A stretch of 64,000 nt of DNA from Microcaldota archaeon (GTDB taxonomy: Archaea; Micrarchaeota; Micrarchaeia; Micrarchaeales; Micrarchaeaceae). Of this stretch, positions 5,516 to 59,092 are shown piece by piece. Position 1 is the stretch's first letter, and each line of letters opens with the position of its first letter. The stretch is from NCBI GenBank assembly GCA_021791535.1, contig JAJYWI010000021.1:42507-106506 (forward strand), given 5' to 3'. A program made the position numbers and the translations under genes. Below the pieces are notes generated by a model, which was not told the origin of the DNA, made no database searches, and saw only the letters and a list, made by a program, of their open reading frames with translations.

Positions 5516-6031
5516 TTGTACTACGATATTGTTTTCAGCTCATGCAACATCGACGGCAGCCTTGTATCAAGGCTTGGATTCTCAAAGATCGGCGTGATAC
5601 CAGATAGTATAGCATTCTTGGATCTCGAAAAGCAGGGTGTTGGTAAGGAAAGGAAGGTGATTGCCAGCGGCCCTGCCGGAAAGCTCATATCGGCTGCGAA
5701 CATGGGCGTCGCTGCTGTATACCTGAAAGGCATGGAAGCGGACAAGAAGCTGATGGCCTCGTTGGCGGACAATGGCGTGGCCCTATGCATATCGCTATCA
5801 GACATAACGGAGAACGACGGGCTCAGGCGTTCCCATACGATATTCAAGGCCGGCCGCCTGCTCTCAAGTGCGAGGAAAAACGGCGTCGACATCGCTTTCG
5901 TGACCCTAGCAAGGTCGAGGAGCAGCATGTGCTCCTACATGCAGATTGTCGAGCTCGCGAAGCTCATAGGTGCCGAAGAGAGCTACGCCAGGAAGAGCAT
6001 AAGCGAGGTTAACGGCAGGCTGGTGGTCTGA
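5516..6031 (+). CDS. rnp3: RNase P protein component 3 (Rpp30)
   Basis: A 171-residue RNase P subunit with the TIM-barrel-like fold of the p30 family, supporting tRNA 5'-end maturation. Typical segments are YYDIVFSS at the N-terminus, GVALCISLSDI, and HTIFKAGRLLSSARKNGVDIAFVTLARS. A TTG start is used: GGTG lies 5 nt upstream and no ATG fits the family N-terminus. Its stop overlaps the start of the Pop5 homologue, so the two RNase P proteins are translationally coupled. Confidence 0.9.
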   Translation: MYYDIVFSSCNIDGSLVSRLGFSKIGVIPDSIAFLDLEKQGVGKERKVIASGPAGKLISAANMGVAAVYLKGMEADKKLMASLADNGVALCISLSDITENDGLRRSHTIFKAGRLLSSARKNGVDIAFVTLARSRSSMCSYMQIVELAKLIGAEESYARKSISEVNGRLVV

Positions 6032-20750: not shown

Positions 20751-20864
20751 GGGCCCATAGCTCAGCTTGGATAGAGCGACAGCCTTCTAACAAACTTCTT
20801 AGAAAGAAGTTCGATCAAGAAAGAGGAAAGCTGAAGGTCGCGGGTTCAAATCCCGCTGGGCCCG
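20751..20864 (+). tRNA. tRNA-Arg(TCT) with intron
   Basis: Acceptor stem GGGCCCA/TGGGCCC with discriminator G. D arm GCTC...GAGC, anticodon loop CTTCTAA (anticodon TCT), and T arm GCGGG TTCAAAT CCCGC. A 39-nt intron follows position 37 (about 20790-20828) and folds on AACTTCTT/AAGAAGTT, as in bulge-helix-bulge introns. Mature length is 75 nt. Accessory DNA begins directly 3' of it. Confidence 0.93.
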
Positions 20865-20933
20865 AGGAAATTTACCGTCGTAAAAGTCGTTCTGTTTAGC
20901 GCATGCTTTAAATAACTAAAATGGTGAATAACT

Positions 20934-21182
20934 ATGATGAAAGTTAATTCAAATGCCTTAGAAAAGCTGCATCCGCAGCTAGATTACGTCTATTATGGCG
21001 ACTGTTTAGAATATATGCGCCGTATGCCTAATTCTTGTGTAGATTTGATTATTACAGATCCTCCTTTCAATATTGGTAAAAAGTATGATTCGTATAAAGA
21101 CAATCTCAGGTTCGAAGAATATCTAAATTGGTGTTATCAATGGCTCGATGAAGCGGTCAGAATATTGAAACCAGAAGGCAGC
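20934..21182 (+). pseudogene. DNA methyltransferase (N4/N6 type), truncated
   Basis: The N-terminal third of a site-specific DNA methylase. YYGDCLEYMRRMPNSCVDLIITDPPFNIGKKYD contains the catalytic DPPF and the start of the SAM-binding region. Homology stops near ILKPEG (about 21180) and the frame then runs through unrelated sequence to a stop at 21240. The rest of the enzyme is absent. Base composition is more AT-rich than neighbouring core genes. It lies 70 nt after tRNA-Arg in accessory DNA. Confidence 0.8.
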
Positions 21183-21241
21183 TTAAGTCAAAGGAAGGTA
21201 TTTATATGTAGACAAGGTGAGCCTTGGTTAAGGGTGAAATG

Positions 21242-21541
21242 ATGCGCGTAGATTTTAGGGTGGAACAAGCTCAAGGAGCTAAACTAATCGTACAAGGAGG
21301 AAGTAGTGTTGCTGGAGGTGAATTTTTAGGCGGGATTCTGCGAAGAGATGGTGAGGTTCTTGGAAGAATAGGCACAGTGTTTCGGCAGGGAGAAGATAGC
21401 AGAGTTACTGCGGCAGAGGTGTGGCCTGTAGATTTAGGCGAACGTCTAAAAAGCTTTATGAGACGTAGGAAGCCGGTCCCTTATGCTGGAGAGCCTACAT
21501 ATTATAGACGTTATCCAAGTTGGACTCAGATCATCGAATAA
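21242..21541 (+). CDS. Uncharacterised cassette protein
   Basis: A 99-residue protein with no recognised family. The first half is Gly-rich with short strands, and the C-terminus has an RRRKPVPY...YYRRYPSW segment. A TATA-like TATTTATATG at 21199-21208 suggests a nearly leaderless message. It is embedded between a truncated methylase and a copy of the dispersed right-end sequence, so it is probably cargo of the tRNA-linked cassettes. Confidence 0.55.
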   Translation: MRVDFRVEQAQGAKLIVQGGSSVAGGEFLGGILRRDGEVLGRIGTVFRQGEDSRVTAAEVWPVDLGERLKSFMRRRKPVPYAGEPTYYRRYPSWTQIIE

Positions 21542-21547
21542 ATAGGA

Positions 21548-21570
21548 GTTTCAAGACCGTTCTGCTTGCG
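21548..21570 (+). repeat. Cassette right-end sequence, partial copy
   Basis: The sequence TTTCAAGACCGTTCTGCTTG starts just after the cassette gene. It matches the left half of the 42-nt right block found complete at 53058-53100 and 58841-58882. The second half of the hairpin (GGTCTTTCAAC) is missing here, so this copy is decayed or cut. Confidence 0.75.
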
Positions 21571-50763: not shown

Positions 50764-50835
50764 GCCCGAATAGCTCAGTGGTAGAGCGACTGGCTGTTAA
50801 CCAGTAGGTCGCAGGTTCGATCCCTGCTTCGGGCG
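50764..50835 (+). tRNA. tRNA-Asn(GTT)
   Basis: A 72-nt tRNA: acceptor GCCCGAA/TTCGGGC, discriminator G, D arm GCTC...GAGC, anticodon loop CTGTTAA (GTT), T arm GCAGG TTCGATC CCTGC. No intron and no encoded CCA. Its 3' half recurs degenerately at 52262-52306, 1.4 kb downstream. Confidence 0.95.
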
Positions 50836-50923
50836 TAAGGGCGGGAGGTCCTATGCCTTTTTCTCAATCAGCCCACATATCCCAGGCACAGAACGTCTCA
50901 TCCCATAACCTGTTTCGGGCACC

Positions 50924-51271
50924 TTAATATCCGACATCTTTACTCCTTTTCTTATGTACGAATTCCCTTCTAAGTCTAAATGCAAGCCTTCCATCCGAAT
51001 GCCTCATCGGTACACCCAAAACTGTGCTGCAAGTAGGGCAAACGAGCTTTGGTGCGTCTTCAGGGACCTTTATCTTTGCATCCTTCTGTAACTTTGCTAG
51101 TTCTGGCGGTGCAGATATCCTGTTAAAGTAGCATCTTATGAGAGGACCAGGACCATCCTTTTGATACCAAAGAACCTTTGTATCGCCGCATTTCTTGCAG
51201 AAAACATCAAGCATAACGGCCTTGCCTCCTCTAACCCTCCTATATTGGTCATTTTTCATTTTGACCCTCAT
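50924..51271 (-). CDS. Zinc-ribbon protein, uncharacterised cargo
   Basis: A 115-residue protein with two CxxC pairs: FCKKCGD and LVCPTCSTVLGV. The stretch DTKVLWYQKDGPGPLIRCYFNRI lies between them, and a basic C-terminus follows. GAGGTGA precedes the ATG at 51271. Family unknown. It lies inside the interval bounded by tRNA-Asn and its degenerate 3' copy, so it is probably accessory. Confidence 0.6.
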   Translation of the reverse strand: MRVKMKNDQYRRVRGGKAVMLDVFCKKCGDTKVLWYQKDGPGPLIRCYFNRISAPPELAKLQKDAKIKVPEDAPKLVCPTCSTVLGVPMRHSDGRLAFRLRREFVHKKRSKDVGY

Positions 51272-51329
51272 GGCTTCACCTCATTGACACTAAGTTTTGA
51301 GATGAATCAATTATACATCTTTCCTTACA

Positions 51330-51380
51330 GAAGGATTAGCAGAAAGCCCATGACTTTCAATCGTGGGATGAATGCGGATT
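51330..51380 (+). mobile_element. IS200/IS605-type right-end remnant
   Basis: The sequence AAAGCCCATGACTTTCAATC followed by GTGGGATGAATGCGG is the hairpin and tail that closes IS200/IS605-type (tnpB/omega RNA) elements. The frame ends in RGMNAD, similar to common TnpB termini. No transposase remains. It lies in a 342-nt region (51272-51613) that otherwise holds only AT-rich DNA and the promoter of the antitoxin gene. Confidence 0.5.
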
Positions 51381-51613
51381 AGACAAACACATATGTATAC
51401 AAATATTGATAAACAATATACTATCAAAGGATTAAATGGACTATGAACACAACGGGACAAGTGTGGCGATGATAAACTACCACAGCCTTCCGCTCAGAAT
51501 ATAAGAGGTCAATATTGGTAGGGGATATAAAGAAAAGGATGGATGAAATTATGGAAACTGTGGCAAAGAGAAAATAATAAATATGTTTCTTCACATAATA
51601 TTTATGTGATTTA

Positions 51614-51856
51614 ATGCCGAATATTACCCTTGTAATTAGCAAGGAGCTTAAGATGGAAATGAAGAGGCACCCCTCTGTCAAATGGTCGAGCGCGGTAAGG
51701 AACGCCATAGAGCAGAAACTTGCGGATTTCAGAGAGGCTGAAAGTATAGCAAAAAGAAGCAAGTTCAGCTTGAAAGATTGGAAATCAATAAGCGAAAAGA
51801 TATCAAGGGATGCTGCAAGACACGCAAGGGCGCTTCTCCATGAAAGTAACGGTTGA
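51614..51856 (+). CDS. VapB-like antitoxin
   Basis: An 80-residue protein with a ribbon-helix-helix-like N-terminus (NITLVISKELKMEMKRHPSVKWSSAVRNAIEQKLADF) followed by an amphipathic tail. This is the layout of VapB antitoxins. It overlaps the PIN-domain gene by 17 nt. A TATA-like AATATTTATG lies near 51597. Likely autoregulates the pair. Confidence 0.82.
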   Translation: MPNITLVISKELKMEMKRHPSVKWSSAVRNAIEQKLADFREAESIAKRSKFSLKDWKSISEKISRDAARHARALLHESNG

Positions 51857-52250
51857 CGCCAACGTACTGTTTGCGTGTCTGATAAAGGACTCAACAACCA
51901 GGAAGCTCTTCTTCAATCCCGCTCTGTCTCTCTTTGCACCAGAATTCATCGTAGAGGAACTGCTGCAGCACATCATAGAGATACGGGGAAAATCGGCCTT
52001 AGGGGAGGAAGAACTGCACCGCCTGATAGCAAAGGTTTTTGGACAGCTAACGCTTGTACCTGATAGGGCACTTAAACCATTCCTGCCAGCCGCAGCAAGC
52101 CTTGTTAAGGATCCAAAGGACTGGTTGTATCTTTCATGCGCGTTGCATGAAGACACTTTAATCTGGAGCAATGACAACGACTTCAGCGAACAAGAAAGAG
52201 TCAGGGTTGTTACTACAAAGGAGCTCATCGCTCTTGTAGGATTACTATAG
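51840..52250 (+). CDS. VapC-like PIN-domain toxin
   Basis: A 136-residue PIN ribonuclease. Catalytic acids: VTVDANVLFACL, FIVEELLQH, KDWLYLSCA (Asp) and SNDNDF. It overlaps the antitoxin by 17 nt. The pair sits inside the tRNA-Asn-bounded interval, so it may stabilise an integrated element. VapC toxins cut tRNA or rRNA. Confidence 0.88.
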   Translation: MKVTVDANVLFACLIKDSTTRKLFFNPALSLFAPEFIVEELLQHIIEIRGKSALGEEELHRLIAKVFGQLTLVPDRALKPFLPAAASLVKDPKDWLYLSCALHEDTLIWSNDNDFSEQERVRVVTTKELIALVGLL

Positions 52251-52261
52251 ATCAGAGAAAG

Positions 52262-52306
52262 CGGCCGTTAACCAGTAGATTGCAGGTTCGATCCCTGCTT
52301 CGGACG
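52262..52306 (+). repeat. Degenerate copy of tRNA-Asn 3' half
   Basis: About 45 nt repeat the anticodon-loop-to-acceptor part of tRNA-Asn (50791-50835) with about five mismatches. GTTAACCAGTAG and GCAGGTTCGATCCCTGCTTC are identical. It forms a decayed direct repeat bounding a 1.47-kb accessory segment, as left by integration into a tRNA gene. Confidence 0.85.
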
Positions 52307-52440
52307 CTCTCTTAAATAAATAGGCAGATAATTTATCAAGTTTTTATCTACCTAACTGATTACTTCAGTTGAAAATAACGATCCAAAGCCATTCGTCGAA
52401 TTTGCATTCAAACAGTATTATCTGCAGATAAAGGAATTTT

Positions 52441-52501
52441 TAAGCTAGAATTCCTTTGAGAGCATGGCACTATCTATGAAACGAGAAGGGCATGGATAGT
52501 G
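52441..52501 (+). repeat. Cassette left-end block, tRNA-Asn locus
   Basis: A roughly 61-nt block shared with 57629-57690. Common parts are AAGCTA..TTTC..., GAGAGCA, CACTATCTATGAAA, and GGGCATGGATAGT. It contains the imperfect inverted repeat CACTATCTATG (52468-52478) / CATGGATAGTG (52491-52501). The DUF5680 gene follows, with a TATA-like TTAATATTTT about 25 nt from its ATG. Confidence 0.75.
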
Positions 52502-52557
52502 CGTAGATAGTAGAAGGCTTAGATAAGGCTTAATATTTTGATGGGCAAAGCCAGAGT

Positions 52558-53058
52558 ATGCCAAAGAAAAGCAAGCCTACGGAGCTCGATATGAAAAGTG
52601 AGGTGCGTAAGTTCCTTATTGTTGCTAACCTTAGAGGTTATGCTGCTGATAACACCAAAGCTTGGATAAAGGAGAAAGATGGTTCTACAACAATAGTCTA
52701 TGAGCGCGAAGACTGGAAGTACCACGATAACTTTTTCGGAGGTGAACCCTATGGCGGTAGAGAGGTCGTATTTTACAAAGGTGAACCAGTATGGATGATG
52801 GTTTACTATGGTGCTATAGTAGAAACAGAATCAGATGTTAAAGGACTCTACCAGTTTTTACAACGGGCTTTGAGAGCTGATCCGGAGAGTAACCCATACA
52901 GAGGGCCGAAGAGCTTCAAAGAAGGTGAGCTTGAATACAGAAATTCTTGGACCGGTGAAGTAGAAAGCTTTTCCGGCGAGGAGGGCATTTACAGAGCAGG
53001 AAAAAGAATATACTGGGCAAAGTATTTAGGCGGTTTTGTAGACCAAAGAGCGGAATAG
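52558..53058 (+). CDS. DUF5680 family protein
   Basis: A 166-residue protein. WKYHDNFFGGEPYGGREVVFYKGEPVWMMVYYGAI is the hallmark of the DUF5680 family, with the YGGREVV and W.M.Y.G motifs. Function unknown; these genes often travel on mobile DNA. Nearly leaderless transcript. It is the only gene between the left and right blocks of this cassette. Confidence 0.8.
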   Translation: MPKKSKPTELDMKSEVRKFLIVANLRGYAADNTKAWIKEKDGSTTIVYEREDWKYHDNFFGGEPYGGREVVFYKGEPVWMMVYYGAIVETESDVKGLYQFLQRALRADPESNPYRGPKSFKEGELEYRNSWTGEVESFSGEEGIYRAGKRIYWAKYLGGFVDQRAE

Positions 53059-53100
53059 CTTCAAGACCGCTCTGCTTAACGCAGTTATTGGTCTTTCAAC
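53058..53100 (+). repeat. Cassette right-end block, tRNA-Asn locus
   Basis: A 42-nt block closely matching 58841-58882. It reads GCTTCAAGACCGCTCTGCTT, then a spacer, then GGTCTTTCAAC. AAGACC and GGTCTT pair, with CTGC/GCAG nested inside, forming a hairpin. It follows the DUF5680 stop codon immediately. Confidence 0.78.
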
Positions 53101-53132
53101 ATGTTCGACTTTCCTACAATCGCATCTGCGTT

Positions 53133-53192
53133 ATGACATCGTATATGACGGGCACGCAGATAGTTGTTGACGGAGGCGTACTCCTGGTGTAA
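53133..53192 (+). pseudogene. Short-chain dehydrogenase C-terminal fragment
   Basis: The last 19 codons read MTSYMTGTQIVVDGGVLLV, the C-terminal signature of SDR oxidoreductases (S-S-Y-x-T-G-x..VDGG). No upstream SDR sequence exists; the cassette right block lies just before it. A disrupted end of a former gene, or acquired debris. Confidence 0.6.
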
Positions 53193-57488: not shown

Positions 57489-57528
57489 AGCTTTATATCC
57501 TTCACAGAGATATCATCACGTCAGCCAT

Positions 57529-57603
57529 GGGTCTGTAACTCAGTTTGGCTAGAGTGGCAGGCTTTTAACCTGTAAGTCGGGGGTTCAAATCCCCCCAGAC
57601 CCG
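57529..57603 (+). tRNA. tRNA-Lys(TTT)
   Basis: A 75-nt tRNA: acceptor GGGTCTG/CAGACCC, discriminator G, D arm ACTC...GAGT, anticodon loop CTTTTAA (TTT), T arm GGGGG TTCAAAT CCCCC. No intron. The last 49 nt plus one base recur exactly at 59043-59092. Confidence 0.95.
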
Positions 57604-57628
57604 AGTAAAATTTGCGACGACAAAATTT

Positions 57629-57690
57629 CTGAGCTAAAATTTCTTCGAGAGCAAGACACTATCTATGAAATGTGATGGGCATGGATAGTA
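57629..57690 (+). repeat. Cassette left-end block, tRNA-Lys locus
   Basis: Match to 52441-52501, located 26 nt after tRNA-Lys. It contains GAGAGCAAGACACTATCTAT and GGGCATGGATAGT, with the pairing CACTATCTATG (57657-57667) / CATGGATAGT (57680-57689). A TATA-like GCTTAAATATTTC follows at 57708-57720, leading into the cassette gene. Confidence 0.78.
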
Positions 57691-57741
57691 AGCGTATACG
57701 TAGGAATGCTTAAATATTTCCTATGCCGTATAAGATTACTG

Positions 57742-58296
57742 ATGGTGGGCAAGGAGAAGGAAGTTGCAGCACAGGACGGCAAAGCAACGACTTCTGAGAG
57801 GGCGTTTGGGCAAAGGGATTACGTTGCTCTATTCGGTAATGTTCTAAGGGCTACAAGCACCGGAAAGCACTACAAATACACCATCTTGCTACCAATAAGA
57901 GAATACTACGAGGGTGCAGAAGGCAATGCCAAAACAGTATTCACCAAGAAAGACGTAAAACAGCTTAGGCGGCTTTTACGTGGCGACTTTGGCGGTGTAA
58001 CATTCAGTTATTCAACTGGAGACTGGATAGATGACGATGGTAGAAACGTGGTTAATGACCACGCACAATACGAAGTTTCGGGCCAGAAAAACAGCATGGT
58101 GCGAAAGTATTTTGCAGAGCTAAAGGCAAGATTGTTATTGCATGCAGATGAAGTAAGAAACATACCGCAGAACGACATATACGTGCAAAGGTCAGCGGTC
58201 AATTTAGGAGATGATGTATTCGAAAAGCCGCCCCTGGAAGAGTTAAGCGGCAGGTTAACGAAACTAAAGGAAAAGCTTAATAATCTAAAAAGATGA
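57742..58296 (+). CDS. Uncharacterised cassette protein
   Basis: A 184-residue protein without a recognised family. SERAFGQRDYVALFGNVLRATSTGKHYKYTILLPIREYYEG is followed by a region rich in Lys/Asp and a C-terminal coiled LSGRLTKLKEKLNNLKR. Start at ATG 57742, about 30 nt after the TATA box. AT-richer than core genes. It overlaps the next gene by 4 nt. Confidence 0.6.
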   Translation: MVGKEKEVAAQDGKATTSERAFGQRDYVALFGNVLRATSTGKHYKYTILLPIREYYEGAEGNAKTVFTKKDVKQLRRLLRGDFGGVTFSYSTGDWIDDDGRNVVNDHAQYEVSGQKNSMVRKYFAELKARLLLHADEVRNIPQNDIYVQRSAVNLGDDVFEKPPLEELSGRLTKLKEKLNNLKR

Positions 58297-58595
58297 TATG
58301 GATGGCAGCGACAAATATTGAAGCGGAAGGTCGAAATATGTGGGTATCACAAGATAGATCGCTTGAAGTTCCCTATGCGTTACAGAGGGTTACGATTAGA
58401 TTCAAGAGCGAAAAGGCCGATCTTGAAGCCCAGGAGATACTAGGCAGAATGGGCAAAGTGCATTACTTTGAAGGCCCTGATGGCAAAGAAAGAGTAAGCA
58501 TAACCGAGGAGATGCTCAAAGTGCTTGAGGAGAAGCATATCCATTTCGAGCGCATTACAAGGCCTGCGCCCGTAAGTAACACCCTGAGAAAGTAA
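58293..58595 (+). CDS. Uncharacterised small cassette protein
   Basis: A 100-residue protein, family unknown. VPYALQRVTIRFKSEKADLEAQEILGRMGKVHYFEGPDGKERVSI suggests a small alpha/beta fold. Overlaps the preceding gene (ATGA), so the pair forms the cassette's operon. ATG 58302 is an alternative start. Confidence 0.55.
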   Translation: MIWMAATNIEAEGRNMWVSQDRSLEVPYALQRVTIRFKSEKADLEAQEILGRMGKVHYFEGPDGKERVSITEEMLKVLEEKHIHFERITRPAPVSNTLRK

Positions 58596-58840
58596 CTAGA
58601 TTGTATGTCACAAAAGAGATCCGACAGGGATGTATTCGTGGTATGTTGTGGTATGGAAGGAGCAAGAGCTATGGCTAGAATTGATACCGTTTTGATAGAC
58701 GCGCAAGGAACAATACTGTAAATAACAAGCAGTATAGTGAACTATTGAGGCTCGGAATACCCCGTGAGATTGTTAGCGCGTCGCCGTCTTATAAGCCACC
58801 TGCGGTGAAAACCCAAAGAAAGTAACAATCTAGTTATAAA
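58596..58840 (+). other. Gene-poor cassette interior with HAD-like remnant
   Basis: No intact gene. A 16-codon stub at 58671-58721, MARIDTVLIDAQGTIL then stop, resembles motif I of HAD hydrolases (the nucleophile Asp in DAQGT). The rest shows no recognisable coding sequence. It lies between the cassette genes and the right block and looks like eroded cargo. Confidence 0.45.
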
Positions 58841-58882
58841 GTTTCAAGACCGTTCTGCTTGCGCAGTTATTGGTCTTTCAAC
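58841..58882 (+). repeat. Cassette right-end block, tRNA-Lys locus
   Basis: The 42-nt block GTTTCAAGACCGTTCTGCTT, GCGCAGTTATT, GGTCTTTCAAC nearly matches 53058-53100. AAGACC pairs with GGTCTT and CTGC with GCAG in a nested hairpin. It lies 160 nt before the tRNA-Lys 3' copy. Confidence 0.8.
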
Positions 58883-59042
58883 GTTCGATTTCTAACAAAA
58901 CCGCACCAGGTGGCTATATAAACTTCAAGTTCTACAATGCTCTTGGAAAATCTGGTTCGAAAATCGGAAAACGCTTTTGAGGAAATGATTGCATGCTGCA
59001 TCAAAAACCGGGTTCGAATTACGGCGACAAAAGGCTAGAGAG

Positions 59043-59092
59043 TGGCAGGCTTTTAACCTGTAAGTCGGGGGTTCAAATCCCCCCAGACCCGA
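59043..59092 (+). repeat. Perfect copy of tRNA-Lys 3' part (attachment-site repeat)
   Basis: Fifty nucleotides identical to 57555-57604, beginning TGGCAGGCTTTTAACCTGTA and ending CCAGACCCGA. They cover anticodon arm, variable loop, T arm and acceptor 3' strand. GGCTAGAG just before it also matches, with an extra AG. With tRNA-Lys it brackets about 1.5 kb, the expected footprint of integration into a tRNA gene. Confidence 0.93.

Follow-up and report, generated by a model that had tools for sequence, protein, structure and literature searches.

The window, a 64,000-nt stretch of one contig of an archaeal genome assembly, carries small elements directly behind three of its tRNA genes. Their GC content is 41-43%, against 52% for the window, and all genomes analysed here, including this one, are metagenome assemblies. 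The features are listed below, where R1 denotes the covariance model of the right block.

20751-20864, + strand: intron-containing tRNA (Rfam), called Gln by ARAGORN; the anticodon read by eye is TCT, that is Arg
20865-21570, + strand: truncated element with a methylase fragment (20934-21242), a 99-aa ORF (21242-21541) and the first 24 nt of the right block (21547-21570)
50764-50835, + strand: tRNA-Asn (ARAGORN, Rfam)
50836-52306, + strand: VapBC-like element at tRNA-Asn, with an antitoxin-like ORF (51614-51856) and a PIN_2 toxin (51810-52250); closed on the right by a tRNA 3' copy of 85% identity (52254-52306)
52435-52500, + strand: left block, Asn copy, whose 3' half forms the upstream region of DUF5680
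52558-53058, + strand: DUF5680 gene, 166 aa (PF18931, E 7e-31)
53056-53140, + strand: right block of the DUF5680 cassette; the hairpin (53059-53100) is kept, the TATA box and attR are lost
57528-57604, + strand: tRNA-Lys (ARAGORN, Rfam); its last 54 nt (57551-57604) are attL, from the 54-nt repeat
57605-59092, + strand: complete integrase-less element in tRNA-Lys, 1488 bp, 43% GC, delimited by two identical, directly repeated copies of the tRNA 3' end
57624-57689, + strand: left block, Lys copy, 85% identical to 52435-52500
57742-58296, + strand: cargo ORF1, 184 aa, with a homologue behind tRNA-Gly in genome G006
58293-58595, + strand: cargo ORF2, 100 aa, function not assigned
58840-58882, + strand: right block, hairpin 1, two stems and a conserved internal loop (R1 match, covariation)
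58883-58922, + strand: right block, second dyad and TATA box (58915-58922), putative integrase promoter region
58993-59038, + strand: codons from an ATG, in frame through attR (frame by eye), putative remnant of an integrase 5' end
59039-59092, + strand: attR, 54-nt copy of the tRNA-Lys 3' end (repeat search, Rfam)

Two short blocks recur among these elements, and every copy of both lies behind a tRNA gene. The left-block identity extends across 66 nt, and its 33-nt core has two matches compared to none in 100 shuffles. The right block is present in two full copies (53059-53100 and 58840-58882) and in one partial copy, where its first 24 nt recur exactly at 21547-21570; these copies are far beyond the shuffle expectation of at most 0.03 matches. 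The first-pass annotation had described both blocks as repeats at these places, with part of the right block at tRNA-Arg, and in this it was correct. Our search of the whole host genome (741 kb, 25 contigs) gave two left blocks, two full right blocks and the one partial copy, and found neither block outside the window.

The Lys element is the best preserved family member in the window. The tRNA-Lys 3' end is duplicated over 54 of 54 nt (57551-57604 and 59039-59092), and the left block, the cargo and the right block all lie inside this duplication. The right block matches R1 at 58839-58925 with 91 bits. Cargo ORF1 has no match in Pfam or NCBIfam. As the earlier reading had it, no recombinase is encoded inside: the HMM search found no integrase, and mobilisation, if any, would occur in trans. 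The element thus keeps attL and attR, as a 54-nt pair, while the integrase is absent, which is the defining state of what in bacteria is called a CIME, a cis-mobilizable element. A TACGACGACAAA arm motif flanks att in this element, with 11 of 12 letters on each side; it is weak in most other elements, and we make no general claim for it. A reading of the Lys left block as an integrase remnant was tried and set aside: the frame followed by eye from the attR codons through the tRNA reaches PDPSKICDDKISELKFLREQDTIYEM and a stop, which faintly recalls EIYDDKIGF of integrases, and at most the block may lie in a frame left from an integrase 5' end. At another locus (L154, G005:C1), tRNA-Lys (5716-5792) is followed by about 25 nt with ACGACGACAAAA and then by a second tRNA-Lys piece, a scar that suggests the deletion of an element from the same tRNA-Lys site.

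Behind tRNA-Asn, the DUF5680 cassette follows the VapBC-like element, and the 85% copy of the tRNA 3' end divides the two. Its right block matches R1 with 56.7 bits, and its losses are seen in the alignment with a genome of another genus (G050). There, the DUF5680 element measures 851 bp, and its single gene is flanked by tRNA-Asn on one side and an att copy of 53 nt on the other; the HMM search found no integrase in it and both att sites are present, as in a CIME. The Asn and Arg right-block copies of the window are truncated and their right attachment sites are missing, so they lack the pair of sites that marks a CIME. Shortly after the hairpin of the DUF5680 right block, the truncated cassette is joined to what appears to be the 3' end of a short-chain-dehydrogenase-like gene (53132-53192, MTSYMTGTQIVVDGGVLLV), the remainder of which is absent. 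In the Arg element, the N6_N4 DNA methylase gene (20934-21242) is cut after about 84 residues, probably as an accessory gene broken by deletion.

The first-pass annotation had placed the borders of a cassette family at the two blocks. The borders are instead copied tRNA 3' ends, and the right block lies inside them as an end module. Hairpin-like ends with differing cargo between them could still be taken for the mobile ends of an IS200/IS605-like or integron-like family. We regard this as extremely improbable, since the copied borders lie outside the blocks, complete relatives have a tyrosine integrase flush at the tRNA, and the left block is absent from relatives except in part. IS200/IS605 elements make no target duplication and their ends are cut at hairpins by a Y1 transposase; a derivative of them is ruled out by borders consisting of 26-60 nt tRNA copies. 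Integron cassettes are joined at attC beside the integron integrase and attI, whereas here tRNA 3' copies stand between the cassettes and the integrases reside in tRNA genes, which rules out this origin as well. The left block is not a family-wide feature, being common to two elements of the host genome. In relatives, only its 3' half (CACTATC..GATAGT) was found, in one genome (G050), where it is the region upstream of DUF5680 as in the window, and the proposal that it forms a family end does not hold.

A DNA search of 85 genomes of the family, using the Lys element as query, recovered the right block at many places. R1 matched 37 places in 26 of the 164 genomes of the order and none outside it, as the same 26 genomes were obtained when 301 genomes of the phylum (Micrarchaeota) were searched. 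The first-pass annotation expected both blocks to lead, in the genome and its relatives, to cassettes near tRNA genes with different genes between: this was borne out for the right block and not for the left, and a common end with cargo varying by element can be retained. The targets include tRNA-Asp, Asn, Lys, Arg and Val, and the tRNA 3' copies that close the elements, 54 of 54 nt in the window, span 26-60 nt in relatives. The cargo comprises VapBC with a kinase-like protein, VapBC with a glyoxalase and EamA, DUF5680, a HigB/ParE-like toxin, an RmlD-like enzyme, a NucS-like nuclease, a HEPN protein and proteins without assignment. Among named genomes, the right-block pattern is found mostly in 'Candidatus Micrarchaeota' records, with one labelled Marsarchaeota, which places the host in the Micrarchaeota by its relatives. 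The pattern has no match in IMG/VR. A loose 22-nt version also matches four Legionella genomes and one gammaproteobacterial contig (L110, L112, L114, L115 and L117), likely by chance or through one common locus. Our searches of the open-access literature yielded no account of elements of this kind from Micrarchaeota. For the ARMAN-like Mia14, a XerD-family integrase is noted in one paper as part of an island.

Three features are common to the aligned right blocks: a hairpin with two stems, then a second dyad (GGTTCGAT..ATCGCACC), then a TATA box. Across 36 copies, the stems of hairpin 1 are paired at 91% and 97%, and nine of its ten pairs are changed on both sides. None of 500 shuffles reached the covariation score, and slid controls were far lower. 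The 36-copy alignment was fitted to the R1 model, and a plain alignment of 13 copies agrees on the covariation. The second dyad is less well supported than hairpin 1. As regards position, most right blocks start 135-259 nt before the tRNA 3' copy. Under a strict criterion, a T-arm follows within 200 nt in 18 of 36 copies, compared to 2.7% of random windows, and none was found in the 33 upstream stretches. At one locus (L080 6324-6552, G048:C20) a pair of right blocks stands in tandem within 230 nt. At four right ends (L101, L102, L103 and L096, in G120, G061, G007 and G158) two different tRNA 3' pieces stand in tandem, Arg-type first, as if the target had changed and the old attachment site had been left as a fossil.

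Could the right block be a conserved RNA, or a terminator travelling with the cargo gene, unrelated to integration? In two copies of the window the block comes shortly after a stop codon, and the stems show covariation of the sort expected for an RNA. On the other hand, the distance to att is kept, there is no Rfam match at gathering scores, and cargo precedes the block on either strand, including the opposite one (L079, L083, L093, L105). As the block is indifferent to cargo strand, a cargo terminator is unlikely, and we give this explanation as a whole very little credence.

The integrase-bearing relatives indicate what the right block may be. Among 162 genomes of the order, 101 encode PF00589 integrases; the ones that measure about 310 aa adjoin tRNA genes flush. 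Of 32 such integrases with a tRNA upstream, 24 have a reading frame that continues without a stop across the tRNA 3' end. In most, the conserved KYG motif follows att at 69-76 codons, and an ATG is found in the first 20 codons behind att in only 3 of 23. When nine complete elements were excised virtually, eight gave an uninterrupted frame supplied with an ATG and a TATA box by the opposite end; L172 was the sole failure. These in-frame junctions place attP inside the integrase gene. Two elements seen whole carry both right block and integrase (G061, 7.4 kb; G076, 11.1 kb), with the block exactly at the ATG/TATA end; in a third (G158) both are present and the element is cut by the contig end. 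Because G061 and G076 have the block where the ATG and TATA box join the integrase, the right block is predicted to be the region that controls an integrase gene with attP in its 5' end. In further integrase elements, the same TATA box is preceded by a GGTTCAGAT..ATCTGAACC-type dyad and hairpin 1 is missing, so that hairpin 1 marks a subfamily. The right ends of L169, L175, L176, L182, L185 and L186 likewise lack hairpin 1, and a perfect dyad immediately precedes their TATA box. The dyad before the integrase TATA box is possibly an operator of wider occurrence.

The three integrases checked match PF00589 and show no PF16795 match at E 0.01. Their nearest NCBIfam model is archaeal XerA, with a score far below the cut-off. 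No match to the integrase was found in IMG/VR, and plasmids returned only distant bacterial matches of about 30% or less. The host genome contains only a fragment of this integrase clade, plus a different integrase at tRNA-His, while its sister genomes G002 and G003 have intact integrases of the clade in the same tRNA-Lys. Integrases are broken or partial at three right-block loci (L084, L086 and L087), and in several integrase-less elements the frame after att soon stops or is shifted.

From this evidence, we consider it quite probable that the window contains three members of one family in different states of decay, that attP lies inside the integrase 5' end, that the right block is the promoter region, and that integrase-less units spread, with the integrase presumably supplied in trans. 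In complete forms, the tyrosine-integrase gene that the element itself carries would contain the crossover site, which is the tRNA 3' end, in its 5' part. When the element is circular, reading would run from the right block (hairpin, dyad and TATA box) through the first ~28-58 codons and attP into the integrase. Integration would part promoter from gene, placing the integrase body behind the tRNA, devoid of promoter and usual start codon, and leaving the right block beside attR; the integrase would thereby silence itself. The hairpin may act as a regulatory or recombination site. The window elements appear to have lost the integrase body and kept the right end, and the Lys element also both attachment sites. 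Without an integrase body they would be non-autonomous, and related elements at the same tRNAs could provide the integrase in trans.

Do the integrase-less units move? The DUF5680 gene is 94% identical between the window and G050 (protein 95%), and at fourfold sites the identity of the window genome to G050 is 86% for DUF5680 against 36% for SecY. These computed values argue for a recent transfer of the unit between genera and, with the att duplications, agree with the earlier claim of mobile, tRNA-linked elements. Cargo ORF1, behind tRNA-Lys in the window, is behind tRNA-Gly in G006, a sister species (tRNA identity by eye). At L105 (4766-6531, G115:C1), tRNA-Lys is followed by an 800-bp toxin mini-element with a right block, an att copy and an element with an intact integrase. 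In G108, two contigs (C40 and C24) end in the same right block, which suggests a tandem of two cassettes at tRNA-Asp, the contigs being joined by inference. Similar integrase-less VapBC elements are found at tRNA-Asp in two genera. The simplest reading is that such units move, presumably with an integrase supplied in trans.

A competing explanation is that the integrase-less elements are trapped remnants, which arrived with an integrase whose gene was silenced and then deleted in place, and are now immobile. The broken and partial integrases at L084, L086 and L087 fit this course, as do the att sites lost from the Asn and Arg copies, and a review describes the same fate, gene capture, in other archaea (PMC8371274). 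Against it stand the DUF5680 unit found without integrase in two genera at 94% identity, the exact 54-nt att copies of the Lys element, and the similar VapBC elements at tRNA-Asp. We rate general immobility as conceivable and somewhat doubtful. Loss of a silenced integrase gene is nonetheless a likely source of integrase-less forms, given the broken integrases, and one source among others. With equal reserve we propose a broader view, in which the integrase-less cassettes would form a trans-mobilised, tandem-stacking system of gene capture on tRNA genes across the order, with the folded right end as a cis site required by a clade of self-splitting integrases whose origin would be independent of the PF16795 lineage.

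The principle is already known from SSV-type integrases and CIMEs. A review assigns the SSV-type ('suicidal', type I) integrases of archaea to a single lineage that has PF16795, and DPANN archaea do not appear in its text (PMC8371274). The likeness consists in attP lying within the integrase gene, in the splitting of the gene by integration into a tRNA gene, and in remnants that persist as captured genes (PMC8371274). In our data, attP in the gene and the split are found in the complete relatives (eight of nine junctions in frame), while the window elements are without the integrase body. The Micrarchaeota elements differ in that integration separates only the promoter and ~28-58 codons from the gene, leaving the catalytic part intact, and in that a covarying hairpin precedes the promoter. 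Since the integrases match PF00589 and not PF16795 (Phage_integr_3), what is new here is a variant of the known principle. With CIMEs (PMC5704250) they share attL and attR without integrase and the tandem with an integrase element (G115 tRNA-Lys); they are much smaller (0.8-4.4 kb), archaeal, and have a common structured right end. Candidate tandems, in which one element could mobilise its neighbour, are L105 and presumably G108 C40/C24. As in ICEclc, the integrase promoter would meet its gene in the circle only; ICEclc is bacterial, and in our elements the integrase ATG lies across att, an arrangement of the start codon that is not known for ICEclc. Its integrase promoter, Pcirc, is at the far end of the element, at position 102,729 (PMC2892462). 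Cryptic integrated elements of Thaumarchaeota are likewise small and in the 3' part of tRNA genes, and the part of that report consulted gives shorter att overall (median 17 bp) and mentions no conserved hairpin end (PMC6563490).

For ultra-small, mostly uncultured archaea, these elements would represent a route of gene acquisition, by which toxin-antitoxin pairs, DUF5680, sugar-nucleotide enzymes and nucleases may be acquired in units of 0.8-4 kb at tRNA genes. The right block provides a searchable marker for such tRNA insertions, and the same cargo at different tRNAs could make changes of target specificity traceable. Finally, the in-frame junctions bear on the published single origin of self-splitting integrases in archaea.
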